NCBI GenBank assembly: GCA_015178975.1
Contig: WHVD01000024.1
Span: 682,001 to 746,000 of the forward strand
Direction: 5' to 3'
From: Hysterangium stoloniferum
Lineage: Eukaryota; Basidiomycota; Agaricomycetes; Hysterangiales; Hysterangiaceae
Length of the DNA stretch: 64,000 bases
Shown one piece after another: positions 34,381-62,500 of this stretch. Below the pieces are notes generated by a model. It saw nothing but the letters and a program-made list of their open reading frames with translations. It ran no database searches and was not told the origin of the DNA. The translations under genes and the position numbers were made by a program. Position 1 is the first letter of the stretch. Each line of letters begins with the position of its first letter.

Positions 34381-34745
34381 CCAAGGCCGTGTATTCGAGC
34401 ACCTTGTTATGAAGAATCCGCGCAATTAATATGCAAAGCGCATATACCCAATCATCGTGCGCATATTTGACTAGGAATATAAATTTTAATGTATCAGTTA
34501 ATATATCTTCTACCGAAGGGCTTCCGCCGGGATCGCCCCGCATTCACCCCCGTGCAATATTTAGGCCCACCTGATGTCGTGTCACAGGTTTAATGTATAC
34601 CAAGGCAGTGCACTACCGATGGCGTAGACCCTACGACTATGCCAGTCAAGAAGGAGGGTAGGTAGTCAACGAATTTCACTCGGCCTCCCCAGATATAAAC
34701 ACCAATACGTGTTTCTCGTCATTATACAGTCTCCACACTTGAGCC
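34381..34745 (+). repeat. Family B leader region
   Basis: Upstream sequence of the family B gene, shared with 44,858-45,353 and 63,303-63,427 ('cagtcaagaaggaggg', 'ctcggcctccccagat', 'ataaacacc'). The matching leader at 44.86 kb adjoins an LTR. I see no defined promoter motif. Confidence 0.5.
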
Positions 34746-37700
34746 ATGTATTTCGGCTGTTTCAGCCCTCCTGGCGATCCTCCACCATTTGATGGATGCT
34801 CGAAACCTCGTGTTATTGTGACCAGTGTGACTACTGGTTGTGAGAAAGAAGCCAAGCTAAAATAGAGACGATGTCTCCATATTAAATCTACAATTCAAAA
34901 AGCAGGGGCAAATAAAGAATTTGATCCCCAAGACGTCCGAAAATCGGCTCAAATACCATACACGAGTCACATACCACAGCCCACGGCCTCCCATGACCGA
35001 CATGAACATTAGCGACTTCCCTATCATGGGTCCCTAGGGCACCCATGTCAGATTAAGCGCCATCAAGAAGCATCCTTCCAACGCTTCAAACAGGCGATCC
35101 CGATCACACATCGATCCTTCGTTTCTGGTCTCTCTCCGTCTGTTGCCAAATAGAGGTTGTGTAGGGTATCGGCCGATATGGTTTCATTACATCTAAAACA
35201 ATAAAGATAAATACTCTTATTTTTGTCCATAAATAATTCAGAATTATCGTCATTCCGCTGATGTCAAAATGAAAGAAAATAGTTTACCGATTTGTACTTT
35301 GGCTTGATCTATCTTAAGAAAACACGTCAGGCTGTGCGGGACACTTGAAAATCACTATTCATCGCCTTAATAAATATCTGTACAATCTGCCCAGCATTTC
35401 TTGATCTTCTAAGTTTGGATGCATGGTTCCTAATGCTATCGCTTGATACTTTTGGCGCTCTAATATTTCCCATTGGTATAGGCTTGTTCCTTACCACCCC
35501 AGGTTTACTCTGCACTACGACCGAATCCAATCACTTGAGAATAAAATCATCACTTCTACAACGACGATGAAGCCCCTTGGTTTCACCAAACCTATTGTGG
35601 TCAGGAGCAGGATCACTCTGACGGCGGTAATGCACCTATCAATGTTCCTGTGTTAGGACATGTATCTGCCCTTCTTTCGCACATTGAACCATACTCATAT
35701 CACTGCCAAGCACCAATGTCGACACCGCCTCACAAAGAATATTATCAGTCATCCTTCATCACTGCGTCTCGGATATGCAGTTCAAGGTGTTGAATATACT
35801 GACGGATATGTCCATATTTCTTGGCTACCAGCTCCCGCATTTTAACCGAGGTTTTAGTCCCTTCGCGGCTGCCGTCACAGGATTCAAGCCATTGGCAAAC
35901 ATCGAGTTAAACATGGAGCAGTTGCAAGATTGTTCGGTTTGCTTCCAGTGAGTGATATGAAACGCTCCTTATATTCGGTTTGCTACAATGACGTGTGAGT
36001 GGCGGTGGCGATTATTTGTTGCTTGTGATGTTGTCACTTACCGGTTGCGTTCCCGTTAGATGGCATCCATTCTCAAAAGGCAGCCTTGTGACGGTGTTGA
36101 TGAGCAAGCCATTCAAAGGCGGACCCAGCCGCGTCGCGCACCTGCCACACGCGCTGCGTGTACACATCGAGGAGACGATCTGTCGTGAGCTCAAGCAACG
36201 GTCAGTGTTATATGGAGCGATGAATAACACTGGAGGCACCCCAAGATTTTTGGAGTTGGAAAACCTTTAGAAAATCTTGCTATTTGGCCAAATTTTCTAA
36301 GCATTTTTTGAACACAAAAACTGTTTGAAAATTTTGAGTATTAGCAGGTTTTTCTGAGGCCAAAAATTGTATCTGAAAATCCTAAAAATCTGCATCAGGA
36401 AATTGTAAGGAAACATTGTTAGAAATAGCCTATTTTTTATGGATTTTATGAATGAGAAAACTCTTAAAAAACCCTGTATTTTGTTAGGGTTTTTCCACCC
36501 AACATAATCCTATGAAAACTGTAATAATGTGCCTAGAGAAATTAATTAAAAACTACATATTTCTACTCAATTTTGCCCCTCAGGGAATTGAGTGAAAACT
36601 GTGATTTCCTGTCTGAAAAAATCTTGTGAGAAGACAAAGTTTTCTTAAAGTTTTGTCAAGGGGAAAACCATAATGAAATTTAAAATTTAATCATGTGAGT
36701 TTTTGTGACACTTTGTGACTTTTTGCAATACTTTGCGACTTTTTACGACACTTTGCGACTTTTTGCGACACTTTAGCGACTTTGTGTGACACTTTGCGAC
36801 TTTGTGTGACACTTTGCGACTTTGTGTGACACTTTGTGACACTGTGCGACTTTTTGCGACACTGCAAGACTTTTTGCGACACTTTGTGACTTTGTGTGAC
36901 ACTTTGTGACACTTTGCGACTTTGTGACACTTTGCGACTTTGTGTGACACTTTGCGACTTTGTGTGACACTGCCGCTTCCTCTCCCCACCCACATCACTC
37001 CCATAACACTCCCCCTCTTCTCACTCGCACCCGCCGAGCTGAGTCCGATCCCGAGCTGCGGTGTCCCCAGGCCCATGTTCAGCGTGCCCCCGCCACTGCC
37101 CGCATTGCTATTCCGCCCACTGTTCCTGCCGCCTCCACCCGGACCACCCACGCCGCCACCAGACGCACCCCGCGGGATGCCAGAGAGATAGTCCAGCCAC
37201 GACCCGCCGTCTTCTCAGCGAGGCATTGTACGGGCTCCAGTCTTGCCCTGGTCCACCACCGCTGCCGCCGCCGCCACCACCACCTGACCCCCCTCCTGCA
37301 GACCCGGGCTGTACACCCGGCCCACCGCCATCACCATGCACAGGCCAGGCCATCTCCAGCACACCAGCCCCCGCGCCAGCACTCTGCCCCGCACCTCCAG
37401 CGGCACTACCCCCCGTGCTCGCTGCGCCCGCCGCCAGGAGCGACGCAAATGGATTGTGGCTGTGGTGGTACGCGTTCTGGGGGTGGTGCACATGCGTGTG
37501 CTGCGGCGGCACGGGGAAGAGATGCGGTTTGTACGGCACGTGGACGTGCAGCTGGGCGTGCAGGTATCCGGTTGCGTAGCCTCCTCCCCCTCCTCCCCCT
37601 CCTCCCCCCTCCCCCTCCTCCCCCCCTCCCCCTCCTCCACCACCGCCGCCACCAGGGCCACCAGGGCCCCCTGCCGACACGGGTCGACGCAGTGCTGTGT

Positions 37701-40330
37701 CTTCTGAAGCTCTGTCCGCCGCCGCCTCCGCCGCCTGTCCCCGGCCCTCCCCCTGCTGCGTGGGGTTGTTATACCCCCCGGGGACGTTGTCCCGCCCCCG
37801 CTGGGTGGCGGCGCCGCCCTGCCCGGGGCCTACTACTCCAGCAGCCACCACTACGCAGATGCCGTGCCCACGCTGAACGGACCCGCCATCTACGCGGACC
37901 CTGACAACCACTTCCCCCCCACCACGACATGGCACCCCGCCTTCCCGCCCTCCGAGAAGCTCGAGAGCCCCACCTTCCCCAAGCTGGGGCACAGGTACGG
38001 CGGCCACAGCCCGCACGGGCCACACGGTGGCAGCGGCGGTGGCGGTGGCGGACACGGACACGGGCACGGGCAGTGGGGGCGGCAGCGGCGGAGAGGGGAG
38101 GGCGGCGCGCCGGGGTTTGGGAGGCTGACGGCGCCGGTTTTCTCCCAGGGCCCTCGGGGCTCGCCGACCATGTCGAGCTCGAGCACCACCACGACGAGCT
38201 GGAGTGGTGCGGCGGGGGTTGGATCGGGGGCGGGGCCGGGCTGTTTCTCGCACGCACGCGGGGAGGCATACGACTCCCACCACACGTCGTATACCGGCTC
38301 ATATCACCTGTACACGTCGACGACGCGCCAGTCGTACCAGCACCTGTCGGGCCTGGGGACCACGCTTGCGCTGTTCCCCACAAATGTGCAGCATGGCAGT
38401 CTGTGGAGCAGTATGCGGACGATGAAAATGGAGATATGAATGGGATCGTTTCACCATCGTCTCCTCTGGCCAGCTCCCTTTTGTTATTTCTCCCCCCACT
38501 TCTATTCCTGTCCTCTCTACCTACACTTCGACTTCGATTCCCCTTTTCTTGCTCACCATATTATATCGCATCATCATGCCCACACCACCTCTCCCCGTCT
38601 TGTCACCCCGCCCCGGCCAGTGCTGCGCCAGCTTTCAAGATTTGTCCAAGTAAAAGTATATTCTACCTAATATGTTTAATGTCTCGTTTATATCCTGTGC
38701 CTGATGATACTGGTATTGATACTCAACTACCTGTACCTATAGACCCTGCCTTGTCACAAAATGCTTTGTGACTTTGTGTGTGGGATGTCACACAAAGTGT
38801 CACAAAAAGTATTATGAATCAAAACCCTATTACATTATACCATTATATCTCAGTCGACAGGTAGATAGGAATTGACTGAGGTAGCTCTTGGTACTTGTAA
38901 GTGTATTTATATGTCTCCGGATGATACCCATAAATCACATGCTTCTCACTGACTCCCAATTGTATTACATCTTAGAGCATGCGTAAGCCCTCATTTCACA
39001 ACAAAAAGTCGCAAAGTGTAACACAAAGTTGCAAAGTGTCGCAAAAAGTCGCAAAGTGTCACAAAAAGTTGCAAAGTGTCACACAAAGTTGCAAAGTGTC
39101 GCAAAAAGTCGCAAAGTGTCACAAAAAGTCGCAAAGTGTCACACAAAGTCACAAAGTGTCACAAAAAGTTGTGCAGTGTTGCAATGCAAAAAGTCGCAAA
39201 GTGTCACACAAAGTCACAAAGTGTCACACAAGTCACAAAGTGTTGCAAAAGTCGCAGAGTGTCACACAAAGTTGCAAAGTGCCACAAAAAGTCGCAAGTG
39301 TTGCAAAGTGTCACACAAAGTCGCAAAGTGTCGCAAAGTGTCACAAAAAGTCGCAAAGTGTCGGAAAGTGTCACAAAGTCACAAAGTGTCGCAAAAAGTC
39401 ACGCAGTGTCGCAAAGTGTCACACAAAGTCGCAAAGTGTCACAAAAAGTCGCAAAGTGTCACAAAAAGTCGCAAAGTGTCACACAAAGTTGCAAAGTGTC
39501 ACACAAAGTCGCAAAGTGTCACACAAAGTCACAAAGTGTCGCAAAAAGTCTTGCAGTGTCGCAAAAAGTCGCTGTGTGTCGCAAAGTGTCACACAAAGTC
39601 GCAAAGTGTCACACAAAGTCGCAAAGTGTCACACAAAGTCGCAAAGTGTCACAAAGTCGCAAAAAGTCGCAAAGTATTGCAAAAAGTCACAAAGTGTCAC
39701 AAAAACTCACATGATTAAATTTTAAATTTCATTATGGTTTTCCCCTTGACAAAACTTTAAGAAAACTTTGTCTTCTCACAAGATTTTTTCAGACAGGAAA
39801 TCACAGTTTTCACTCAATTCCCTGAGGGGCAAAATTGAGTAGAAATATGTAGTTTTTAATTAATTTCTCTAGGCACATTATTACAGTTTTCATAGGATTA
39901 TGTTGGGTGGAAAAACCCTAACAAAATACAGGGTTTTTTAAGAGTTTTCTCATTCATAAAATCCATAAAAAATAGGCTATTTCTAACAATGTTTCCTTAC
40001 AATTTCCTGATGCAGATTTTTAGGATTTTCAGATACAATTTTTGGCCTCAGAAAAACCTGCTAATACTCACAATTTTGAAACAGTTTTTGTGTTCAAAAA
40101 ATGCTTAGAAAATTTGGCCAAATAGCAAGATTTTCTGAAGGTTTTCCAACTCCAAAAATCTTAGAGTGCCTCCAGTGTAATGAGATACTTGACAATGATT
40201 TTCTAGACATGCTGCAGTGATCGGCGATGCGTGTATTGCCTTGATATACATCGCTCTTGTATTCACGCTGTTCGGCGCCATCCTGTACTTCATACACTCT
40301 CGTCTTGAAAACGCGACACGTCAGACCTGA
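34746..40330 (+). CDS. Family B gene: predicted membrane protein with a transposon in its last intron
   Basis: Unrecognised protein. The first exon starts MYFGCFSPPGDPPPFDG at 34,746, with a likely 69-nt intron at 34,837-34,905. Middle exons are less certain but include a hydrophobic stretch (FGALIFPIGIGLFLTTP) at about 35,440. The 3' part is clear: exon to 35,786, intron 35,787-35,880, exon 35,881-35,994 (VARLFGLLPVSDMKRSLYS), intron 35,995-36,059, exon 36,060-36,200 (LPHALRVHIEETICRELKQR), and last exon 40,207-40,330. The last exon encodes a membrane helix (ACIALIYIALVFTLFGAIL) and stops at 40,330. Phases agree across all these joins. The last intron is 53 nt (GTCAGT..CTAG) once the 3.95-kb element and one TAA are set aside. 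Two membrane segments suggest an integral membrane protein. The 5' exons could be wrong. Confidence 0.5.
36690..36975. repeat. Left subterminal array of the CACTA-like element
   Basis: About a dozen copies of a 16-22 bp motif around 'gcgactttgtgtgacac', varying as 'gcgactttttgcgacac'. It is the inverse of the right array. Such arrays bind the transposase in plant CACTA elements. A binding role here is inference. Open frames through it (many KVSQ/KCHT repeats) are artefacts of the period. Confidence 0.85.
36976..37800 (-). pseudogene. Captured host gene piece 1 (Gly-rich), minus strand
   Basis: On the minus strand a plausible protein can be followed: RGRDNVPGGYNNPTQQGEG near 37,780, ALRRPVSAGGPGG, a Gly/Glu-rich tract, then YATGYLHAQLHVHVPYKPH, QHTHVHHPQNAYHHSHNPF and LEMAWPVHGDGGGPG, then a block ending DYLSGIPRGASGGG near 37,160. 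A single-base frame change occurs at about 37,205. The mixed, non-repetitive sequence between the Gly runs suggests real coding ancestry. It reads into the subterminal array without a stop of its own. No domain recognised. The opposite strand is also open because of GC richness. Confidence 0.4.
37801..38439 (+). CDS. Captured host gene piece 2 (His/Ser/Gly-rich), plus strand
   Basis: The plus strand is open from about 37,707 and becomes protein-like at 37,820 (GAYYSSSHHYADAVPTLNG, then NHFPPTTTWHPAFPPSEK). A Gly/His run (GGGGGGHGHGHG) follows, then a Ser/Thr/Tyr-rich tail (SYHLYTSTTRQSYQHLSG), with a stop at 38,439. An in-frame ATG lies at 37,864, giving 191 residues, but the frame starts earlier, so the true start was probably left behind. 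About 250 bp of pyrimidine-rich sequence after the stop resembles a 3' untranslated region. It stands back to back with the minus-strand piece at about 37,800. It may be the other half of one host gene inverted, or a second gene. Function unknown. Confidence 0.45.
   Translation: MGGGAALPGAYYSSSHHYADAVPTLNGPAIYADPDNHFPPTTTWHPAFPPSEKLESPTFPKLGHRYGGHSPHGPHGGSGGGGGGHGHGHGQWGRQRRRGEGGAPGFGRLTAPVFSQGPRGSPTMSSSSTTTTSWSGAAGVGSGAGPGCFSHARGEAYDSHHTSYTGSYHLYTSTTRQSYQHLSGLGTTLALFPTNVQHGSLWSSMRTMKMEI
38752..39712. repeat. Right subterminal array of the CACTA-like element
   Basis: More than thirty copies of a motif around 'gcaaagtgtcacacaaagtc' and 'gcaaaaagtcgcaaagtgtc', the inverse of the left array but about three times longer. 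A solo LTR splits it at 38,810-39,003. The very long Lys/Ser/Val open frames in all three phases (212 to 248 codons) reflect a period not divisible by three with few stops, and are not genes. Confidence 0.85.
38810..39003. mobile_element. Solo LTR inside the CACTA-like element, AAAAG duplication
   Basis: A 194-bp fossil LTR, minus orientation (TGTTGTGAAATGAGGG on the minus strand), is flanked by AAAAG at 38,805-38,809 and 39,004-39,008. It matches the LTR at 44,654-44,857, so the source family is the copia-type element present there. It must have arrived after the array existed. Confidence 0.85.
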
Positions 40331-41587
40331 GCGCGCGGCTGATCGCGCACCGCCAGTATATGACGGTAAGGTTGAGGGCATCAACCCGGCTGATCACCCA
40401 CCCGCTGTGGATGACGGTAATGTCGAGGGCACACACGCGGATCCCGACTCTACCCCACGTATCCTGTGGGAAGACAAGGGAAAGGGAGTCGACATTAGAG
40501 AGTATGGCCCCCTCATCCTGGATGGATCGCTGTTCACAGGATCATTCGCCCAGCGCATTGTGAAAGGTTTGTCCAAGGTCTTGTAATTAATGTCATCATA
40601 TACTGACTTGACTTAATTTGAGCAGGACCTAATGCTGGGACGTTCCATCTCCACATCGTTTCCAAGGCGAATACCACCATTCCCCCCAAGTTCACTGCCG
40701 GTCATGATATTGTGGATGTGGATGACGGTAACGTCAAAGGCGCCGATGAAGAGCCGGACTATACCCCACGTATCTTATGGGAAGACAGGGGAAGGGGTCG
40801 ATCTTAGAGAGTATGACCCTCTCATGCTGGATGGATCGCTGTTCACGGGATCATTCGCCCAGCGCATTGTGCAAGGTTTGTCCGACGTCGTTTAATTAAT
40901 GTCATTGTATACCTATTTGACTTAATTTGAGCAGGACCTAACGATGAGACGCTCCATCCCCACATCAGTCTCAAGACCAATACCACCATCCACCCCAAGT
41001 CACAAACTGCCGGTGATGATGGATCGGAGTGTATGGTACCGGGTTCGTGTGGTTTATTTTACTTTTCATAATATATTACTTAAATATCCTACTATTCACA
41101 GAATCTTCCCTCATCCACCACGACGATGAAGCCACTGATCAGAAAGTGTTCGCCAGTACGAACACGCAGACAGACCTGTCTCCAGCATTTGGTTCGTACA
41201 CTTCATCCCTTCGCGCGGATCTGTAAAAACTCATCAAAATCCGCGATAATTGCAGATATCCCTGTGACAGCCTTGCTCCCGGTTTCCCCATTCGTTCACC
41301 ATGCTGTGTCTTGCCAATTCGACCCCTCGCACGCTAGTGCTACCCCCGCCGCGATGGACAGTGAAGGGATCAATAATCATGGATACGGACAAGGTAGTGA
41401 CTCCTTTATCCTAATGCGTCATTTATTAAATTGATATTTTGTGCAAATATAGAAGTCTATGCAAACACGTCGTATAGGAGCAATCTGGGGCGGCTCATCA
41501 TCTAGTACGCAGTACGTTGCACCACTCCTTTCTCTCATATATCATTAACTTTAATTAAATTTAGGATCTGCCCTCACACGACGGTAC
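40331..41587 (+). pseudogene. Family D gene, 3'-truncated copy
   Basis: This starts just after the family B stop. Exon-like stretches read HPPAVDDGNVEGTHADPDS, TPRILWEDKGKGVDIREYG and LDGSLFTGSFAQRIVKGLS. The last of these modules is repeated at about 40,715-40,890 (DDGNVKGADEEPDYTPR, LMLDGSLFTGSFAQRIVQG). Intron-like ends (TTAATTTGAGCAG at about 40,612-40,625 and 40,923-40,936) follow each module. Downstream, SPAF joins IPVTALLPVSPFVHHAVS over a GTTCGT..TTGCAG intron at about 41,190-41,253. At 41,587 it breaks into a family A fragment, so the 3' exons seen in the second copy are lost. Function unknown. Confidence 0.45.
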
Positions 41588-42493
41588 GGGCCAGTCGATC
41601 GGTTCAAGACGACGCGGCCTTTGGTAAGTTCCTTCAAAATCATTTTACGCTGCCAAGACTTGGAAGGCTAGTTCAAGAGTGTGTTGATTTAGTGAAGTAG
41701 GGATAACTTGCATCAACCTTGAATACACTGGAAATACTCATGTCTGAAGTTGTAGACCCACATACACGACTGAAATTCGGAAAGGACTGGGGATGGTTTT
41801 ATATGTGGTCGCGGATTACCCTTGTAGACAGCGGAGGAACATCATGACCTCTTTGGGTGCGGCCTTCATATGGTGTCCTGGGGTGTATTGGTCAGATAGA
41901 GACAGGCCAAATGAGATTACGTCATCACTTTACAACGTTTTAGTCAAGTCGCCGTTGCACACCAACTTGGATGAGGTTGCACGAGCATTTGTCGCACGGT
42001 TAGCTCGTTCTCTATCAGACTTTGATCATCTCATACTTTGGGGCCTTGCGATTATCGTAGAAGCCATCTCCCACGTGCGTCAACTATCTGGACAGGAAGT
42101 CGGTGATCAGAGGTTACATTGAATTGTGGTTAGTACGGCCGTGCGTCACGACATGACATAATTTCATCCCCCCCACAAAACCATAACAGACAAAACCACT
42201 GGCGACTATCTCCCGGTTATGGGCATCCTATAAAGCTTGTCGTATGTCGGATCCACCAAGATGCATGGTTTTGATATATTGCCGGAGCTATATTGAATGT
42301 TTTAGTGGACGACCTACACATGCATATAGCGTGATTGACACGTCATATTAATTTGAGGACATCACATTCCCTGGTTTGGTGTATTTACTACTTGAAAACC
42401 TTCTTCGACGACAGCACGCTTCTCACCGATCACATCAACCAGCTCAATGTCGTTTCTCCGTTCATTGGGTGTATCGTAAGGTCCGTTCACAAT
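41588..42493 (+). pseudogene. Family A gene copy 9, both ends missing
   Basis: It begins mid exon 2 (matching 27,008 onward) directly after family D sequence. It runs through exon 3 (GAAFIWCPGVYWSDRDRPN, LHTNLDEVARAFVARLARS) and ends within RSVHN at 42,493, where a 51-bp tandem repeat starts. It is nearly the same as the corresponding part of copy 7 at 26.4-28.2 kb, so the duplication is recent relative to the other copies. Confidence 0.6.
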
Positions 42494-42625: not shown

Positions 42626-44857
42626 AGGTCGACTTCGTAGCGTGAGTGTCTGCGACGATAAAGCGAGCGGCTAGTCAAAGCCGTACAAGTCTAGTGGTTT
42701 CAGCCCCACTCGGCGTTGCTTGATAGTGCTCTTCAAGCTAGGTTATACGGTTGAGTTAGAGTTTGAAAGTTCAGAATACACTTGACTCGGTTTGGGTACA
42801 AAGAACGCGTTGCAAACGTATCAGACATTGGAGGAAATTGCATGCAGAGGTCAGGGTAAGGTAACTGTTCCACATCACAGTGGACAGTGTCAATGATGTT
42901 GAACACATATGCAATATATACGGTGGCGATGAGAGAACAGAGCAGAAGTAATTGAACTCAGACGTGGAATTGGCCAAAGAAATGCGAGTGACCGGGTCAG
43001 CGATGGTTCCAACGCCTGTTCCACGCACAAGGGGCTTGTTTTCTTTGTCGATAAAAACAACGCTTCCCCCCCTCCGAATATGGGGTAGCATCCAGCTTTG
43101 TGAAAAGGTCCGATCGATAGGAGATTGTGTGAAAATCCAGGAGTATGCCAAACGTTCAGGAAGCTAATATTAACAGATTTTCCATTGAAAATTACCCTTT
43201 TAGTGACTGTGCCAACACCATGTATTTGGAAATTTCCTCCCGCAGTGGCTATTGTTCCTTGTTTCCCGTTAAATGATGTGTAAGATAGGAAGTCACCAAT
43301 GTTTACAAAGCAATGGTCGCTGGCTGTCGAATCAGCGTATGTGAGGTTACGGGGTTGGATGGACTTGGTTGCTTGAGTGACGAGAGCGTAAAAGTTGTCC
43401 CCAGATGTAGATGCTACGGATTCTGTACGGACTCGAGCAATTTCGGCGGTAGGTGTCTGTGGCTCTGATTTTGGGGTAAATTGTCCATTGACATTCCCTT
43501 TTCTCTTCCACCAGTCTGTGAACTGGCCCTCATGTCTCCCCCAGGCTTAAACACTTATCGATGGTATATCCGGTCTTTCGGCATACGGGATTCGACCATA
43601 CTAATGAACTTCGGGTTGCTTTTTGTTACATTGTCACTAGTGCCTGGCTTGTTTGGACGGCTGGCCCTCTATATCGCGCTAGCGTCGCGTCGTGCATTGT
43701 GAGTCTCGCTATAACCGCCGCCGATGTCTTCTGACGGTATAGTGTGGCTAATGTATATAGACCACTCCCCCGGCATTGATCCTAAAATGATGGTGCGAAA
43801 AATCAAGGCCGTCAATCTTGCTACCCTGTCCAATCGCCTTTTTCCAAGCTTCTCCAAGGACTGCAAAATGCGCTGTTACTGTATATCAGCACCGTCGGTA
43901 TGTCTTTGTTATGGCAAGTGCGTTCCACGCCTCTGCTGCAGTTTGGGTTGTTTTTATTCCAAAACCGAGTGGATTCTTAACATTGAGGACAATCATGCTC
44001 CTTGCGTACGCATCGCACTGTGGCCATTCATCCAGTGTTGGTGTCGTGGATCCCCAATACCTCGTCGACGTTGGTGTTGGAACATTCAGGGGTCAGTGTG
44101 GGTTTAATGATACTTCCATATAGGTACCCTTGCATTAGCTGCGGATAGGATGGTTTCTTTCCAAGAGTACCACGTGTTTCCATTGAAACACTCATCGGTA
44201 AGAAGTTGGAACAACGATGGCTGTGTTGGCATGTTTAGGTGTCAGGTATAGTCAGATTGGAGTTCGTTATGATCGGGTCGGGGTCAGCGTGGTCGGGGCC
44301 AATATTCAGATTGGGGTTCAGTACGTTTGGTTCGCACACAGGGTCAGTTAGGGTTCGGGATCAGCTCCTTGATCGTAGCTGAGTCGGTTCGGGTTCGTTA
44401 TAGTCGGATTGGGGTCAGCGCGGTCGGGGGACAATAGTCGGTGCGATGGCTGGATCAAGGATCAATTCAGAGGTCAGCGTTCGGCTTGTCTCGATTTGTT
44501 GTTTAGTAACTTGGGTCGTGGATCAGGCTCAGGATAGTTTACTTCAGTGATCGGCTGGGGTCAGTTTTGTATTTAGATCGGGGTTGATTGGTTCGGAATC
44601 CTTGTATCATGTTATCAATATCTGTTCAGCAACTTGGGACGGGGCCCATAACGTATTATCAATGGAGACCCTATAACAATAATTATATCTCAGTCGACGG
44701 GTAGATAGGAATAGACTGAGGTAGCTCTTGGTAGTTTGGGTGTATTTATACGTGACTTCGGAACAAAAGGGACGGAGATACCCGTAAATCACGTGCTTCT
44801 CACCGACTCCCAATTGTATTACGTCTTAGAGCATGCGTAAGCCCTCATTTCACAACA
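42626..44857 (-). mobile_element. Ty1/copia-type LTR retrotransposon fossil, 5' part only
   Basis: On the minus strand a 204-bp LTR (44,654-44,857) is followed by a leader rich in 'gggtcagcg' type repeats. A gag region (PSLFQLLTDECFNGNTWYS, typical of copia gag) starts near 44,240 and is followed by a worn zinc-knuckle region and protease-like region to about 42,800. Integrase, reverse transcriptase, RNase H and the other LTR are absent, so it is truncated as well as broken in several places. The LTR matches the solo LTR at 38,810-39,003. It is clearly older than the copia copy at 58.9-63.3 kb, judging by its decay. Confidence 0.65.
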
Positions 44858-45353
44858 GAAGGGCCTCCGCCGGGATCGCCCCCGCCATGCTAGCATTCAC
44901 CCCCGTGCAATCTTTAGCCCCACCTGTTGTCGTGTCACAGGTTTAATGTACAATACAATGCACTACCGATGCCATAGACTCTACGACTACCACAGTCAAG
45001 AAGGAGGGCAGGTAGTCAACTGTTACAAATAGTATGACTTAGTTCAAGGAGTAGTAAGAATCCACTAAGGAATACATAGTTTCATGAGGTTCGTATTTAA
45101 GTACAAGAAGACGGTAGCAAGGATCATGGGTCATGTGGTCATATAATACTGGACAATAGAACAATTAGCCTACAACGTGAACAAAAAGAATAGTGAGACA
45201 AAAGTCCCGATAGAGACGTACAATAATCCAAACGGGGTTCCGTGCCCCTTTCAACTTTATAGGTACGCATTAGCCTAATTCCAACATCAACGAATTTAAC
45301 TCGGCCTGCCCAGATATAAACACCATACATTATACAGTCTCCACACTTGAGCC
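44858..45353 (+). repeat. Family B leader, second copy
   Basis: It matches the leader at 34.4-34.7 kb. It starts right at the copia LTR edge ('gaagggcctccgccggg' here, 'gaagggcttccgccggg' at 34,512), so the LTR element inserted at this point. About 240 bp between 45,020 and 45,290 is absent from the first leader. No gene is seen. Confidence 0.5.
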
Positions 45354-47712
45354 ATGTATTTCTGCTGTTTCAGCCCTCCTAGCGATCCTCCACCATTTGA
45401 TGGGCGCTCCAAGCCTAGTGTGATTGTGACCAGTGTGACGACTGGTTGGTGGAGAAAGAAGCAAAGCTAAAAATAGAGACGATGTCTCCATATTAAATCC
45501 ACAATTCAAAAAGCAGGGGCAAATAAAGAATTTGATCCCCGAGAGGTCCGAAAATCGGCTCAAATACTATACACGTGTCACGGACCACAGCCCACGGCCT
45601 CTCATGACCGACATGAACATTAGCGACTTGCCTATCATGGGTCCCAAAGGCACCCATGTCAGATTGAGCGCCATCAAGAAGCATCCTTCCACCGCTTAAA
45701 ACAGGCGATCCTGATCACACATCGATGCTTCGCTTCTCAAACGTCTGGTCTTTCTGCGTCATTGAACCAGTGTAGTTTGTGCATTGACATTAACCCAACC
45801 CATACTTTTTTTTAAACATAATAAATCGAATTTTATGGCTTGATCTATCTTCTTGAGAAAACGCGTCAGACTGTGCGGGACACTTGACAATCACTATTCA
45901 TCGCCTTAATAAATATCTACACAAACTGCCCAGCATTTCTTGGTCTTCCAAGTTTGGATGCATGGTTCCTAATGCTATCGATTGATATTTTTGGCGCTCT
46001 AATATTGCCCATTGGTATAGCCTTGTTCCTTACCACCCCACCACCGAATCCAAAAATCATAACTTCTACAACGACGATGAAGCCCCTCGGCTTCACCAAA
46101 ACTATTGTGGTCCGGAGCGGGATCACCCATCCGCTGTGGATGCGGGTCATGTCGAGGGCATCCCGGGTGATCACCCACCCGCTGTGGATGACAGGAATGT
46201 CAAGGGCAACGACCCGGCTTATAACTCATCTCCTGTGGATGACGGGGACGTCGAGTGCACCCACGCGGATTCCGACTCTACACCACATATCTCATGGGAA
46301 GACAAGGGAAGTACGGCCCCCTTATGCTGAATGGATTGCTGTTCACAGGCTCATTTTCCCAGCACTTGCAAGGTTTGTCCGACGCGTGTAATTAATGTCA
46401 TCATATACTGACTTAATTTGAGCAGGACCCAATGCTGGCACGTGCCATCCCCACATCGTTCCCAAGGCGAATACCACCATCCGCCCCAAGTCACAAACTC
46501 CCGGTGATGATGGATCGGGTGTATGTGGTACCGTGTTCGTGTGGTTTATTTTCACTTTTAATAATATATTACTTAACTATCCTACTATTCACAGAATCTT
46601 CCCTCATACACCACGACGATGACGCCACTGATCAGAAAGGGTTGGCCAGTACGATCACGCAGACAGACTTGTCTCCAGCATTTGGTTCGTACACTTCATC
46701 CCTTTGCCCGGATCTATAAAAACTCATCAAAATCCGCGATAATTGCAGATATCCCTGTGACAGCGTTGCTCCCGGTTGTCCGATTCATTCACCATGCTGT
46801 GTCTTGCCAGCTCGACCCCCCGCACGCTAGCGATACCCCCACCACGATGGTCAGTGAAGGGATCAATAGTCATGGATACGGACAAGGTCGTGACTCCTTA
46901 ATTCTAATGTGTCATTGATGAAATTGATATTTTGTGCAAATATGGAAGTCTATGCAGACACGTCGTCTAGGGGCATATGGGCGGCTCATCATCTAGTACG
47001 CAGTACGTTGCACCACGCTTTTCTCTCATACGTCATTAACTCTCATTAAATTCAGGAACTGCCCTCACACGACGGTACTTGGCACGGTGTCCTTGCCGGA
47101 CGAGCTTCTGAGCAGGCCGGATCCTGTGCCGAGGCCAAGGTCTTCACCTCCTGACTTCCCTGACTTCAAATATCAGGAGATACCTCGTTAGTTGTGACCT
47201 ATTTTAATACCAAATTAAACAAAAAAAGTGACGACCACCCTAGCGGTCGCAGCTCCTAAAGTGATACCAAGCACAAGGTCTCCGACCGATGGACATCCCA
47301 GCCGTCCTTACCGGGACGAAGCCGAATCTGACGGGTCGCCTGCATCAATTCACAACCCTAAGACCCAGAGCCAGTATAAAGGACATGGTGATAGTTCGCA
47401 TGTCTCGGACGATCCGTCCTCCGGGGCGGGAACGTCTTCGGGTTGCAGGTGAATCCCGTCGGCTATTTTTCTGACACCAACTAACATTGATTTCTTAGCA
47501 GAAAAAAGCGTTTCAAACATAGGTCGTCAACAGCTCAGCCCCATTACGATGGAAAGACAAAAGAGAGGCGAGACAAGGCCTTTCATAACAGAGGAGAACC
47601 GCCAACACGGTTAGACAAGCATGATTTCGTGTCATTAATCTTGGCGATTATACTTACCTGTTACCATCTAGGCAAGTGGCTAATGCCTCAGTGTGACAGC
47701 ACTTGCGCCTGA
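45354..47712 (+). CDS. Family B/D fused gene: predicted C-terminally anchored protein
   Basis: The 5' part repeats family B: start MYFCCFSPPSDPPPFDG at 45,354 and hydrophobic FGALILPIGIALFLTTP at about 45,985. Near 46,125 it passes directly into family D sequence (DHPPAVDDRNVKG, SPVDDGDVECTHADSD). The family B exons for VARLFGLLPVSD and for the B membrane helix are missing, so a deletion seems to have fused neighbours. The 3' end is well supported. An exon ending 47,186 (LPDELLSRPDPVPRPRSSP) joins 47,229-47,448 (SPTDGHPSRPYRDEAESDG), then 47,499-47,712 by a 50-nt intron with a CTAAC branch site. The last exon is basic (SRKKRFKHRSS) and ends with a membrane helix (DFVSLILAIILTCYHLG). Middle exons contain damage, so the product is uncertain. 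Function unknown. Confidence 0.45.
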
Positions 47713-52353: not shown

Positions 52354-55300
52354 TCAATCTAATAATACATCTTTGTACACTATATTTGCAGTTCTCTTTG
52401 ACTCCTTCTCTAATAATATTTTAACCCTATTCCAACTTCTTCCCCTTGAAAGTCCCACATACAATTGCCCATGTCCAAACACAGCCGTTCTCAAATCTAA
52501 TCCTACTAATTTCAAAGATTGTCCCTGTGACTTGTTAATCGTCATTGCAAATGCCAGTCATACTGGAAACTGAACCCGATGAAGTTTAAAAGGGAGTTCA
52601 TCATCATTTGTAATGATTTTAATCCTTGAAATAAATGCCTCTTCCCCAGCACATGGTCCAGTTAAGATCCGCACCAAAAGCAAATGATTTTCCATTTTCA
52701 GTAGTCGCAATTTTGTACCATTGAAAAGTCCCATCTGTGGATCTATGTTCCGTAGTAGCATTAAAGGTACTCCTGGCTTCATCTCAAGTCTACTTGGTGA
52801 AATTCCACCAAAGTTGAGACTATTTAAATATTCCACAGGATAGACTTCTGCCTCCATGTCACCCTCTGCAGTGTCAGCACTGTGGTAGACACGACTCACT
52901 CCAGGGAATCTATTTAGAAGTTCTGAATTAATTTCTTCCACATCTGAATTCCTGGGACACAGAATAGCACAGTCTAAGAAGTCTCCATCTTGCCAATCTC
53001 TTTGGTCTCCATCCACATGGATGTCTGGATATATCTCAGCAATTAGATCAGACATTTCTGGACCACAGATCATATGAGGAGGGATATCCATTGTATGATC
53101 CAAAGGCAAATCCTTTCCATGGCCTACATCTAAGAGCCACTGAGCAAACTGATCACTGTGTGGATCATGCTGATCAACCCGCATATTCTTTTTCAAGAAA
53201 AGTACCTTGACATGGTTCCAGAGTTGAGATTTTTGAATACATTCACCAATAATCTCTTCTTTAGAGGCACATTGTACAACAGGCAAAGTCTGCTGAAAGT
53301 CACCTCCCCAGGCAACAGGAATGCCTCCAAAGGGGAGAGCATCTTTGTCTAATACATCCCTTAGAGTTCTGTCGACTGCCTCACATATGAAATGTGACTG
53401 CATTGGAACTTCATCCCAGATGATGAGGCATACTTGCTTCATGAGCTCTGCCTTTTCTGAGCCCTTTTTGATGTGACATGAGGAGTTCTTCTCACAGGGA
53501 ACAGGGATTGCAAACATGCTATGAGAGGTGCGACCACCTTTCAGAATCATTGATGCAATTCCAGATGAGGCGACACAAAGGACAATGTAGCCTTTGGCAC
53601 GACATGCATATGCAAGAGTATTCCATACAAAGGACTTGCCAGTGCCACCTGGGCCATTGACAAAGAACATTTTGCCCTGCTGCTGCTCATCAACTGCCTT
53701 GATGATAGTGTCAAAAGCCACTTGTTGTTCAGGATTGAACTTTTCAAGATTGGCTTGGGCACTGGCATGCTCATGATCAAGATTATAATTCTTCTGCTCC
53801 CTAATGAGACGATTGCCAATGAACTGATCCCAATTCTCAGTGATTTGTGGCATGGTTGGATAGAGTGAAAGAGACTTTCCAGAATAGCGGAGGATTTTAT
53901 CAATCTGATAGAGATCAAAGTCATAAATTGTGTGAGGTGCTGCATTGTCAATGTTATATGTAACCCTCAGGATCCAGTCCAAATCATCACAGATAAATTC
54001 TTTGAACTCATCCCAGAGTTCTTGAGGTTGTGCAGGGGAGGACATGGTCAAAATGATGATGAACAACCTGCGAAGTTGAAGGCCAGGCTGTATGCGACTG
54101 GCTTCTCTGAGGCACATGTTCCACTGGCGATCATCTTCAAGCAAACCACATGCAACACAGGCTTGTTGAAATGTGGGATGGGTCTCACCCTGAAAAGTCC
54201 TTAGATTTTCAAATGAGGTGGCACCTTGGATGACAGTGAGCAATGTACGGAGGTGGAATCTTTCACCACAGGCAGCATTGACAAAATGGATGTGTCCTAT
54301 GGAAAAACCACTTTGACGTGGCTTCCATGATTTAGTCCTAGCTACAAATGTAAAATACTTGGGAAAATCCATATATACAATGTGTCCCTGGCACAGCGAC
54401 AATTGTAGCCAATAAGATCCTTGGCATTAGCTTCAAAATAAGCCATTAAAGTTGTGCCAGCACGCTCTGCCCTTTGTAAAGCCTCAGCAGGACCCTGATC
54501 AGCATCAAAAATGACAGTGTTTTCCCCAGGGAGGTGGACATGAAGTGCCATTACTGCAGGAACCTGGGTGTGGAGTTCATTGCACATTAATCACCAGACA
54601 GACTCATGTGCATTAACATATCGTGCATCAAGATACTGTTTAATCTCATCTGGTGTCTTTCCAACCTCCATAGTTGTGCGATCAGGGCCTTTGTAACAGT
54701 ATTTATGCATATACTTCATTGATCTATTGGTAAAGACCAACTCGACATTGATATGGCACTCAAAGGTGAGAAGCAGAATAGGAGAGTAAGGAAAAACATA
54801 TCTGTTGTCATATGTAAACTTGGGAGTTACATAAACCCTCCCATTGTTGGGACGAAGGTAGAATGGATAGCCTTCCTGATTGACAATGGTGGCTTCACAC
54901 CAATCCTTTGGGAAGAATTTACCACATGTACCATTGGCCATACAGGCAGCATTTGGATGATGAAGACTGCAGGGCCATGGGTCATGAGTTGACCTACTAA
55001 ATTAAATAGTCTGGGATGTGTTTCAGGATCTGGAAAACAGGCAGAAATAATTGAATCGACATCTGCAGGTGTCCTTGGCTTATCCTGCTCCTCAAACCAT
55101 ATAAGACACTGCATGTGTGGAAGACCCCACTTTTGAAATTCAATGACATGGATATGTGCTACTGTTTTACCAAAGATATGGCCCTCTGTAATCATTTTCA
55201 GCATTTTAGCCTCTTTGATAGCAAAGACACGTGAGACCAAATCAGGGCGATCAGCAGGGGTCTGGCCAGGAAGCAATTCACGGGTGACCTCCTCCCAATT

Positions 55301-58111
55301 GGGATTAGCAGTCATGGTGATGAAGCAGCTGGCATTGCCATACTTGCGTGCAATTGCAAAAGAATTTTGCAGACTTTGCCTCATATCCCTTGAACCACCA
55401 GTAAATGAAGAAGGGAGTATGACCCTCTGACCGATACTATTGGGATTGATATCATCATTTGAAAAAGCATCAATGACCTGGTTGTAGAGTTCTGCACGTA
55501 TCCTTGGTTGATTTTCACTCAGAAACTTCAATCTGCTCTGTTCTGTGACTGCCCAGGCATCAACAATGTACTGCTGGAACAGCGTTTGTGCATAAAAAAT
55601 GGTTTTAGCTTCATTTGCTCTAAGAAATAGGTGATAGGCATAATATTCACACTGGGTCACCTTACGACTTTTGTCTTCTTCTTCAGCTTGTTCATACTGC
55701 TGTGCAGCCTGGGGCTGCCAATTATTATTTGCATAGGGAATGTCCCATGACCAACCACGCTCACCCCTGGGAAAGAGCATGACATAATGAAGGGGTGTAC
55801 AAATGGCCTATCCTTCATGCAATCGATGGAAAGGCCCCCCCCTTCTCTGAACAATAATATCCCTTGGATCACCCTGACCTGTATCACCATCTCCAGGCAC
55901 AATGACTGAACCGGTTGGAAGGTTGTACCGTCGGGGATCAGTAAAAGCCTTGTAACTCAGTCTAACATGTACCCTTGGAGTCTCTGCCTGTGTCCTCAAT
56001 CGCTCATGTGCCTGGCGATAGAGTACTATAAAGGGATTATATTGCTCCATCATGTCCTGCAAGTCAGAAAAGGTTTGATAGTTTAGATTCCGATTTGCCC
56101 TGTGATTCTGCCTTATCTGCAATGCATTCCCCAGTGCATCCTCATGTGCCAGTGCAGGATCATGGATGTAAAGCTGAGCATAACTGGGTGATACATCTTC
56201 CCCGTATGGGATTAAGGAACCATGCTCATGATACAATCCACCATGTATTTTAAAGACATATGGGCCCCGACCACCTTGCAAGACAGACTCATCTAATTTG
56301 ACACCAAGTGATATAAATGCAAATGCATTATTATTTGCACGAATATTTTTGTGAAATTCCTTGGCATTGTCTGTATTATCCTCAAGAAGAGACTTTAAGG
56401 TATGAGGGACTGGTTCAAATATTGGAAGGATGATCTTTCCTTGCTTGCAACACTTGCCAAACTTTGGTGTTGTCCGAGAGCTAGCTGACAGATGCTCATC
56501 ATCCATCCAGTGTAAAGCTCCACAGTGTGAACACTGTATGTTCATATGTCCCACATCATATCTTGGAAACCTGGCCTCCACAACTGGCTGCCGTCCAATG
56601 GGTAATTGTGCAACAGGAAGTGGAAGTGGAGGGATGGCTGCAGGGTCTGGAATGGCTGGGGGTGGGGCATTGACTGCAGGTAGGGCAATGGCTGGGGGTG
56701 GGGCAAGTGGGAGAATAACTGGAGGTGGAGGAATAGCTGGGGGTAGGCCCAACTGTAGCTGTTGCTGTGAATTTGCTGCTGGAAAAACAGGTGGATGGTG
56801 ATGTGGTGGTGCTAGCTGCAACATGGGTACCTGTTGTTGTGGAACTGGATTTCCAGGTGGATGGTGAAGCTGTGGTGGTTCCCACTGTACAATAGGTGGT
56901 TGTTGTTGTTGCTGTGGAACTGGATTTCCAGGTGGATGATGAAGCTGTGGTGGTGCCCACTGTACAATAGGTGGTTGTTGTTGTTGTGGAACTGGATTTC
57001 CACCTGGATGGTTATGCTGTGGTGGTGCTAACTGCAAAATGGGTACCTGTACCTGAGGTTGTGGAATAGCATTAATATGTTGCTGCTGTGGAACTGGATT
57101 TCCAGGTGGATGGTGAAGCTGTGGTGGTGCCCACTGCAAAATAGGTGGTTGTTGTTGTTGTGGAGCTGGATGGTGATTCTGTAGTGGTGCTAACTGTAAA
57201 ATGGGTAGCTGTGCCTGGACTTGTGGAACTGCATTAAATGATGCATGACTATGTTGTAGTGGAGCCGATGAATGACTTTGCTGTACTGGTGCAGGTACAT
57301 TTCCTGGTTGATTTCCTGGTTGATGACCATGCTGTGGATGTGGTGCTGATTGTAAAATCGGTGGCTGTAGTTGTTGAGCAGGTTGGTCTAATGGTGGTAA
57401 AGCATTATACTGAGCATACAGAGCAGCTACTGCAGCAGAGCCAATTGCAGGCTGGACGGCTTCAATTGGTTGCTGCAGTTGAACAGCTACATTGCCTTGT
57501 GTACAAGCTGGTGCCTGTGGCTGAACAGGTACATTTTCTGGTTGATGATCCTGCTGTATATGTGCAGCTGCATTTCCTTGTCCATGACCCCGTCCCCGCC
57601 TAATAGGTTTTTTTAATGGTGGCAAAGCCAAATACTGCCTTTGCAAGGCAGCCACTGCATCAGAACCAACTATAGCAGAGCCACCTGTAGCAGAGCCACT
57701 TGCAGCAGAGCCACTTGCAGCAGAGCCACTTGCAGCAGAGCCACTTGCAGCAGAGCCACTTGCAGCAGAGCCACTTGCAGCAGAGCCACTTGCAGCAGAG
57801 CCACTTGCAGCAGAGCCACTTGCAGCAGAGCCACTTGCAGCAGAGCCACTTGCAGCAGAGCCACCTGGCTGAGCAACCAAAAATGGATTGTCAGATTGAC
57901 CTCTACTAACAGGAAGATGAAGATCTCGGAATGGTTGAGCAGGAGGTGGTATATTAGAATTCACAGCTAAACACCGATGACGATCAGATGGAGATGTCAT
58001 TTGCAATTGTGCCCTATGCTGCCTTCGCTCCTCCTCTCGATCACGCTCAGGTGTTTGATCCATAATGATATAGCAATCACAGTAGCAGCAGCAGAGACAG
58101 AAACCCTGCAA
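52354..58111 (-). mobile_element. Helitron Rep-helicase gene, damaged
   Basis: Rolling-circle transposon protein. From 58,111 downward come a Pro/Gln-rich N-terminus with 15-bp repeats (GSAAS units) and PVPQQQ-type repeats, a Cys pair region (CSHCGALHWMD), then a Helitron_like_N Rep domain (PLHYVMLFPRGERGWSWD at about 55,770). The nuclease motif reads EFQKWGLPHMQCLIW, so the second His of HUH is Gln here. The paired-Tyr helix is KYMHKYCYKG near 54,700. The PIF1-type helicase follows (GPGGTGKSF near 53,650, [30 protein letters not shown] near 52,445). About five lesions (in-frame stops and frame changes) split it, for example the UGA just before [13 protein letters not shown] near 52,570. It is therefore not functional as read, though decay is modest. 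Confidence 0.9.
57686..57866 (-). repeat. 15-bp tandem repeat encoding GSAAS
   Basis: About twelve near-perfect copies of 'ttgcagcagagccac' inside the Helitron N-terminus. Each copy encodes Gly-Ser-Ala-Ala-Ser in the minus-strand frame, and the period of 15 keeps the frame open. It is probably a flexible linker and prone to length change. Confidence 0.9.
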
Positions 58112-59502: not shown

Positions 59503-62500
59503 GTGCCCAGTTTAGAAAGTGTTTCGGATTCATCGAATGAATCTGAAGTGGAGGGGGGTGAGGGAGATAATGAAAGTGACTGGTTCTCGGAAGTGGGCGA
59601 TGAGAACAACAGCTTGTTGGGTTGCGGCTGGGAAACCGAGGATTTATTGGAGGCTGGACAAAGCGAAGAATCGCTTACTGGTATTGACTCCGATTTGGTT
59701 GAGGAGGTATCTTGGACCCACGTCCTAAGGAAATGCCATGCCGCAGAACCTGTAGAAACAACTGTGAACATTAACGAGGATCGTCCAACTGAGTATCCGA
59801 GGAAGGAATTATATGACTCCGGAACAACCAGACACATCTCACCTTACCGAGAATCTTTCGACAATTTTGTTGAAATTCCTCCAAAGCCCTTTACGGTGGC
59901 AAACAAGAAGTCGTTTAATGCTGTAGGAATGGGTGAGATGGTTATTGAGGTCCCTAATGGCCTCCATACCTCGAAATTGCAGTTGATGGAAGTCCTGTAT
60001 TCTCCGGAGGTCGGTTATACATTGGTGTCAATTGGCCAACTAGATGAGCTGGGATATGAGACGACGTTTGGGGGAGGAAAATGCATCATTTGTGGGCCTG
60101 ATGGCGAGATGATTGGTGTATTCCCCAGAGGCAACAAAGGGCTGTACCGAAATGTACAGGAGCCCGATGCCGTAAACATTGTATACGACGAGGTTTCCGT
60201 GATGGAATTACATTGCCGAATGGGGCACATCGCACCCCAAACAGCTCGGAAGCTAGTGGAGAAAGGGTTAGTCACTGGGGTGAAGCTGGATACTTCATCG
60301 AATGAGCCTACCTTTTGCGAGGCTTGTACCTATGCCAAAGCAATGCATAAACCTGTTGCAAAAGAGCGTGAAGGGGAGCGGGTGAAAGAATTTGCAGAGG
60401 AAGTTTATACAGACCTCTGGGGACCATCGCCAGTCACAACCTTGGGTGGACAACATTACTATATTACATTCACGGATGACAAAACTCGACTCACTCACAT
60501 TTATCTTCTTCGGAAGAAAAGTGATGTGCTGGAGGCCTACAAAACCTTTGACGCATGGTGCGAGACCTAGCAAAGTGCATGGGTGAAAATCCTCCACTCG
60601 GATCAAGGTGGTGAATACCTAGGAAAGGAGTTTACTGTTTATCTTGAGAGACGAGGCACGAAGCAGAAACTTACCGTTCATGATACACCTCAGCACAATG
60701 GAGTTGCGGAATGGCTAAATAGGACGGTTGTGGAGAAAATTCGGGCAATGCTACATGCCAGCAGTTTACCTAAATTCCTATGGGGCGAGGCAGCTCGACA
60801 CGCCATTTGGTTAAAAAAGAGGACATCGACAAAAGCACTTGATACTTTAACACCATGGCAGGCAGCAACTGGCAAACAGCCTGATCTTCATGGGCTTCGT
60901 GAATGGGGATGTCCAGTATGGGTGCGCATTGAGGGTGGAAATAAGCTAGGTGGTCGTGTGGAAGAAGGTCGGTGGATAGGTTTTGATAATCGGAGCAAGG
61001 GAGAAAGGGTTTACTGGCCAAAGAAAAAGTCAGTAACGGTCGAATGGAATTTATGGTTCGACAAGACGAATGTAAGGGCTCCAGATACACTCGAGGGGGA
61101 GGATGATTTCCAGATTGAGTTACCAAGAGCCCAGGCCGACAATCCAATTGTCGACAATTCATCTACTCCCGATCCAAAACCTAAGGACTCACTGCTTCCT
61201 GAAAAATCTCCACCAGAACCTGTCGCAGAACGCCCAAAGTGTGTGCGTAAACCTGCACAACATGTCAAGAACATTCTTGCTGGTAAAGCGGCGGATGAGA
61301 AACCTACCCGTGGGGTTCAGTTGCCGGATCCCGAGTCTCAAAATGAGGGGGAGCATGGTCTTCACATTGATGACGATGAAGATGACGATGTGGAGTATGG
61401 TATGCTTGCAGAGATGCGAGAGGCGGAGGCAATTGAGCCGAGAATGCTTGAGGAGGCGAAACATCGTCCAGATTGGCCGTTATGGGAGAAGGCGATTGAG
61501 GAGGAGCTACAAATGCTGAAAAATGCCGGCACTTGGGAGTTAGTAGAAGCGCCTGTAGGAGCAAATATCGTTGGGTCGAAGTGGGTTTTTCGGGCGAAGA
61601 AAGACGCGGCCGGCAATGTTGTTCGTTACAAGGTGCAGCTAGTTGCACAGGGATTTTCGCAAGTACCTGGGGTCGACTACTTCGATACCTACGCTCCCGT
61701 CGCCAAGTTGGCGTCCATCCGTGCGGTTCTAGCCATAGCTGCGCACCATGATATGGAGCTTGATCAGATTGACATCAAGGGTGCGTATCTGAATGGAGAA
61801 CTTACTGGTGACGAGGTTGTCTATATGCGTCAACCTCCCGGTTATTCCAAACCGTCATTGTCATCTTCGAGGTTAGTTGCCAGGCTTCGGAAAACCTTAT
61901 ATGGTTTGAAGCAGAGTGGGCGATGCTGGTACCACTGTTTGATACAGATTCTGGTCGACGAAATGGGTTTCACCCAGTGTGATGTCGATCAAGCGGTGTT
62001 CTTCAAACGAGAGGGGGAAAAGCTGATGGTCGTTGTGGTACATGTGGATGATTGTACAATTGCAGCGACGTCAAAGTTGTTGGTGGTAGAGTTCAAGGGG
62101 GAGATTTGAAAGCACGTCGAAATTTCTGATCTCAGCGAGCTACACTGGTTATTAGGCATCGAAGTAAAGAGGGACTGTGGCGCACGTACCCTATCTCTTT
62201 TGCAATGTTCTTACATTGACGCAATCCTTCGTCGATTTAACTTAGAGGACATGAAACCGATTTCGACGCCTATGGACACCCATGTCCATCTCTCAACATC
62301 TCAAGCACCAGCTTCAACGGCGGATTTCGCATTCATGCGAGATGTCCCATACCGTGAGGCCATCGGATCGTTGATGTACGCGGTGCTGGCAACGCGCCCG
62401 GATATCGCGTTCGCAGTGACAGCGCTCTCGAAGTTTTCCAGTAACCCCGGTGTTGCTCATTGGGAAGCTGTGAAATGAGTATATTGTTATTTGAAGGGCA

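Follow-up and report, generated by a model that had tools for sequence, protein, structure and literature searches.

Among fungal DNA transposons, EnSpm families are characterized by 5′-CAC..GTG-3′ termini and 3-bp target duplications, as set out in passages of PMC12730594; for Plavaka elements—whose transposases resemble those of EnSpm—the same passages give termini of the form TGT..ACA or CATCA..TGATG and duplications of 2 or 2–3 bp. Removal of DNA transposons from mRNAs has been described as SOS splicing, in the portion of PMC13247085 considered here a metazoan process in which the ends are ligated by RTCB and not by the spliceosome. Within the sections of open-licence papers covered, we found no report of a transposon inserted in a short fungal intron in the manner described below, and the nearest literature in those sections concerns stwintrons in Hypoxylaceae (PMC9024468, PMC8469720).

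The locus lies in a 64,000-nucleotide window of the Hysterangium stoloniferum genome (part of contig C157), where a transposon of almost 4 kb interrupts one copy of a many-copy gene, hereafter the family B gene. In our assessment this is very probably a non-autonomous CACTA/EnSpm-type transposon in a genuine short spliceosomal intron of that gene. It would have arrived by cut-and-paste transposition at a TAA mid-way in the intron, presumably moved by a transposase supplied from elsewhere. The element and its parts are as follows (TIR, terminal inverted repeat).

36,225–36,227, no strand: target-site duplication TAA, left copy (a single TAA in the element-free sister copy, L009)
36,228–40,177, no strand: 3,950-bp DNA transposon of CACTA/EnSpm type, apparently non-autonomous, assigned from its ends and from related copies genome-wide
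36,228–36,971, + strand: left TIR, 744 nt, with sub-terminal repeats of about 10 bp at its inner end
36,976–38,650 (approximate limits), no strand: GC-rich internal segment with open frames, possibly captured sequence
38,990–39,715 (approximate limits), no strand: tandem array of about 10-bp repeats on the element's right side
39,455–40,177, − strand: right TIR of 723 nt, sharing 95.4% identity with its left counterpart
40,178–40,180, no strand: target-site duplication TAA, right copy

An earlier note on this DNA had described CACTGG/CCAGTG ends flanked by TAA, and this held at the positions given above: the element starts with CACTGGAGGCAC and ends with GTGCCTCCAGTG, with TAA on either side. 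The identity of its left end to the reverse-complemented right end extends over 744 aligned columns, and the outer arms of the inverted repeats (539 nt) are 98% complementary; arrays of about 10 bp form the inward portions of these repeats as well as a large share of the element's right half. Sub-terminal short repeats are a trait of CACTA/EnSpm transposons, and here both TIRs carry repeats of this kind at their inner ends, together with the CAC..GTG (CACTA-like) termini typical of the group, in the form CACTGG...CCAGTG. A Pfam scan of two frames of the GC-rich internal segment returned no family above the cut-off and no transposase. Genome-wide, 103 matches to the frame within this segment were found, of which six (itself counted) reach ≥92%; several adjoin matches to the element's TIR and others do not, and the segment is possibly captured host sequence.

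We searched the whole genome (111 Mb, 554 contigs) for further copies. Its end pattern, with up to two mismatches allowed, occurred at 202 forward and 197 reverse sites and a control pattern at none on either strand; taken with perfect 3-bp target duplications in ten out of ten other copies tested, this argues that the ends are not a product of chance. The ten end pairs, chosen from 100 sites listed of the 399 TIR sites, carried seven different triplets (CCA, TCA twice, TAA twice, ACA, CAG, TTA twice and TTT), and two more pairs of the family had TAT and ATG duplications (C442 and C323). Given 3-bp duplications and CACTGG...CCAGTG ends, we therefore classify the element as CACTA/EnSpm-type and apparently non-autonomous. 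Plavaka and KDZ transposases have 68 and 71 matches, respectively, in this genome and none in any of 14 control genomes, which together with the short introns would suggest a basidiomycete-like fungus; PF02992 has 12 matches. Although the Plavaka, KDZ and Tnp2 families occur in the genome, comparison by eye with the 100 listed of the 399 TIR sites placed none of them inside a TIR pair, the PF02992 matches included, and no transposase with these element ends was found in that comparison; membership in CACTA/EnSpm consequently rests on structure. A Plavaka identity was considered and rejected, the termini being CACTGG..CCAGTG and not the TGT..ACA or CATCA..TGATG given for Plavaka in the passages cited above; in the one Plavaka locus examined (8.5 kb), inverted repeats did not exceed 34 nt and matches to the window element did not exceed 16 nt.

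Other copies of the family were searched for an autonomous partner. In the 12-kb copy on C442, a large insert contains long frames, one of which gave only a weak RNase H-like match (RVT_3, E 0.023, below the cut-off). In a 5.6-kb copy on C80, the inner 4.2 kb (L108, G000:C80:144500-148700) consist of 10-bp arrays throughout, GATTCACATA-like at first and then, on the opposite strand, GAATCTATCT-like, unlike the arrays of the window element. Minisatellites thus seem to differ between element copies, each breeding its own kind.

The interrupted gene has dozens of copies in the genome and encodes a predicted protein with a C-terminal hydrophobic helix; frames of 350, 253 and 174 aa from relatives matched no Pfam family above the cut-off. 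Its parts in the window copy are given below.

34,541–41,593, + strand: part of the repeat unit carrying the gene; for the most part it runs colinear with L009, the element-free sister, in four pieces of 94.6–96.4% identity
35,995–36,059, + strand: intron A, 65 nt, GTGAGT...GTTAG; absent from the earlier note
36,060–36,200, + strand: exon 2, 141 nt, from the gene model and alignment
36,201–36,227, + strand: 5′ part of intron B, donor GTCAGT, with one TAA counted here
40,181–40,206, + strand: 3′ part of intron B, branch-like CTTGAC and acceptor TTCTAG
40,207–40,330, + strand: exon 3 with the hydrophobic helix (about 40,232–40,294) and an early stop (40,328–40,330) particular to the window copy

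Setting aside the element and one TAA left exactly the 53-nt GTCAGT...TTCTAG intron that had been proposed, and across it ICRELKQR continues in frame into HAAVIGDACIALIYIALVF, again as proposed. The join was further said to lead to a membrane helix and a stop: both are present in the window copy, but the stop is not the family's end, and relatives continue into a repeat tail. It is a one-base length difference just 3′ of the helix, seen in the window copy only among 16 aligned rows, that gives the early stop. Likewise, the statement that neither flanking frame makes sense without the join applies to the window copy but not to many of its siblings, which are open whether or not the segment is removed.

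The surroundings are rich in other repeats. Another family B unit, at 44,855–47,078 of the window, is without the stretch homologous to about 35,617–40,391, that is, most of the gene, and has GATCAC at the break; further along lie a Helitron on the − strand (52,558–55,780; PIF1 helicase PF05970, Helitron_like_N PF14214) and a Copia-type retroelement on the + strand (59,503–62,109; PF22936, PF13976, PF25597, RVT_2 PF07727). Elsewhere in the genome, four family B copies (L031–L034; C388, C157:763k, C157:871k and C231) have a frame that joins LFG to PVRLHPF, lack the greater part of intron A together with adjacent exon 1 sequence, and have open frames of 217–240 codons; a deletion or a processed copy would both fit. 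Further family B units (L043–L047; C338, C348 and the start of C524) sit within near-perfect palindromes, located on short contigs or at a contig end, whose arms measure about 3.5 kb, 7.2 kb and at least 9.2 kb and are 99.7–99.96% identical—young inverted duplications or an assembly artefact.

We searched the same genome with the joined flanks and scored 40 of 170 candidates, which makes the resulting counts a lower bound. At least 39 element-free places run straight across the join (base by base for those fetched), the best among the 40 of 170 candidates being C524:121506-122351 (L009) at 95% identity. An element-free 53-nt form, which the earlier note had recommended seeking, is therefore present in L009, but as a paralogous copy in the same genome. 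These places also bear on the idea that a rearrangement placed two unrelated fragments side by side as flanks, their in-frame join being fortuitous: the region is indeed highly repetitive and shuffled, but at least 39 uninterrupted counterparts refute such an origin, and we grant it virtually no probability.

The comparison took in the window and 67 other stretches, 68 in all; the region is covered by 50, of which 44 are distinct, and the other 18 were dropped. With the window included, intron B measures 54 nt in 21 of the 44 copies, 53 in 19, 52 in two, 57 in one and 70 in one, and two further copies have 63 nt. The 70-nt form, in L057 (G000:C524:341600-343000), is due to a 16-nt tandem duplication that doubles the branch-like motif. 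GT-AG ends are found in 39/44 copies and TTGAC in 41/44, the window copy having both (GTCAGT...CTTGAC...CTAG). Diverged copies have GTGAGT...ACTTGACAATGATTTTCTAG, mostly at 53 nt (52–63 overall), with an in-frame TGA at the donor; they uphold the earlier proposal that the CACTA-like element sits inside an intron, one that is real and ancestral.

As expected for a U2 intron, removal opens the frame across homologues: with introns A (65 nt) and B taken out, a three-exon frame of about 178 codons is open in 17/44 copies. Thirteen of these are open either way (two of them, L014 and L028, having lost the AG of intron B) and four (L013, L052, L063 and L084) are closed when intron B is retained, so that only four copies discriminate directly. 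Exons 2 and 3 joined without intron B are open in 25/44 copies, and reading through from exon 2 to exon 3 is open in 18/44; among the 16 copies with a GTGAGT or GTAAGT donor, exons 2 and 3 are open in six when spliced versus one when read through. In L084, removing the 53-nt intron B and the 65-nt intron A yields one open three-exon frame, the other two frames having several stops. This comparison of copies argues that intron B is genuine by descent.

A different reading takes the 53/54-nt segment as coding, the window copy as one base short and the element as lying in an exon. The 54-nt length in 21/44 copies, the open passage from exon 2 through the segment to exon 3 in 18/44 and the single frames, about 253 codons long, that many copies have would all suit it, but the 253-codon frames reach exon 2 from intron A, out of match with the exon 1 frame. 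Moreover, the diverged copies, which have GTGAGT and a TGA in frame and measure 52, 53, 57 and 63 nt here, are at odds with a coding segment, as is the three-exon frame of L084, open only with both introns removed; we hold this reading very improbable. The related suggestion that the open 54-nt form of most close copies is a decayed exon and not an intron was overturned by forty further stretches, many of them diverged, with a canonical GTGAGT intron and an in-frame stop.

A more plausible variant, compatible with a genuine intron in the family as a whole, is that the intron was real in ancestors and became exonised, that is, translatable, in the window's own clade. In that clade of 27 rows, the donor is GTCAGT in 22, the length 54 nt in 20 and read-through open in 17; as the donor change deleted the in-frame stop and the one-base length change preserved the frame, the former intron could be translated in 17/27 copies (e.g., L025, L017 and L018), through exonisation or drift. 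However, GT-AG and the branch-like motif are mostly retained, the spliced form is about as often open, the near-neutral rates described below mean that both changes may be drift, and the window copy itself, at 53 nt, is closed when read through. We therefore regard exonisation as possible but rather unlikely; the counts from the window's clade do not discriminate between the spliced and the read-through form. On the midpoint-rooted tree, the 53 nt of the window/L009 pair may be either original or the result of losing one base from 54.

Returning to the insertion into a genuine intron, the window and L009 copies are sisters (support 100/99), and L009 has the same 53-nt segment with a single TAA and no footprint; the insertion thus most likely postdates their split, the alternative being perfect excision from L009. 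A frame-breaking length difference in exon 1 is common to the two copies, a second exon-1 length difference in the window copy is absent from the other 15 rows of the alignment, and L009 has a stop in exon 3. Since this damage lies outside the element and is in part common to an element-free sister, the window copy was decaying before the insertion. The earlier suggestion that the host gene could still be spliced around the element is not supported as a means of preserving a working gene, given the frame breaks in exon 1 and after the helix, one of them common to L009. With the copy already in decay, it would presumably have made no difference that the element landed in an intron and not in an exon. 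Sequence comparison shows the element, its duplication, the ancestral intron, the element-free sister and the frame damage partly common to that sister.

Mean pairwise differences among copies are 0.120 in exon 1, 0.105 in intron A, 0.110 in exon 2, 0.099 in intron B and 0.114 in exon 3. With exons (0.110–0.120) about as different as introns (0.099–0.105), the copies are drifting almost neutrally, and retention of GT-AG is consequently no proof of present splicing. By codon position (1, 2 and 3; 44 rows), the differences are 0.116, 0.085 and 0.159 in exon 1, 0.133, 0.108 and 0.090 in exon 2, and 0.152, 0.060 and 0.130 in exon 3, a hint of past constraint at exons 1 and 3 but not at exon 2.

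Could the intron still be spliced? When both element ends (600 + 606 nt plus a spacer) were folded as RNA, 562 of 573 left-arm bases paired with the right arm, suggesting that a transcript would form a long stem drawing the intron halves together; the fold speaks to looping out as a possibility and to nothing beyond it. The inverted repeats might in this way loop out almost 4 kb and restore donor, branch and acceptor to a spacing of about 53 nt, leaving the transposon silent in the mRNA. Against this, a 4-kb intron is unusual in a setting of introns of about 55 nt, silencing may act on long double-stranded RNA, and the donor in the window's clade is GTCAGT, not GTGAGT, in 22/27 rows; we therefore consider such splicing improbable, and with the window copy decayed, the question is largely moot. 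Were looping out real, it would offer a general route by which fungal genes with short introns could accommodate long-TIR elements. Recognition of short introns in fungi probably spans their limited length, which is why removal of an intron with a 4-kb long-TIR insertion, if seen in transcripts, would matter more than the insertion itself.

The event is an ordinary, if tidy, insertion of a familiar type; its value is as a clean example in which a CACTA-type insertion, its empty site and the short intron around it could be established from one genome via paralogous copies. Compared with fungal EnSpm (CACTA, CMC/CMCT clade), the window element differs in being without a recognised transposase and in holding 10-bp arrays, a GC-rich segment and inverted repeats of about 744 nt, and it agrees in its CAC..GTG termini and 3-bp duplications, as given in the passages of PMC12730594. 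Its removal from a transcript would, like SOS splicing as portrayed in the cited portion of PMC13247085, excise a DNA transposon; yet SOS splicing is there metazoan, with RTCB and not the spliceosome joining the ends.
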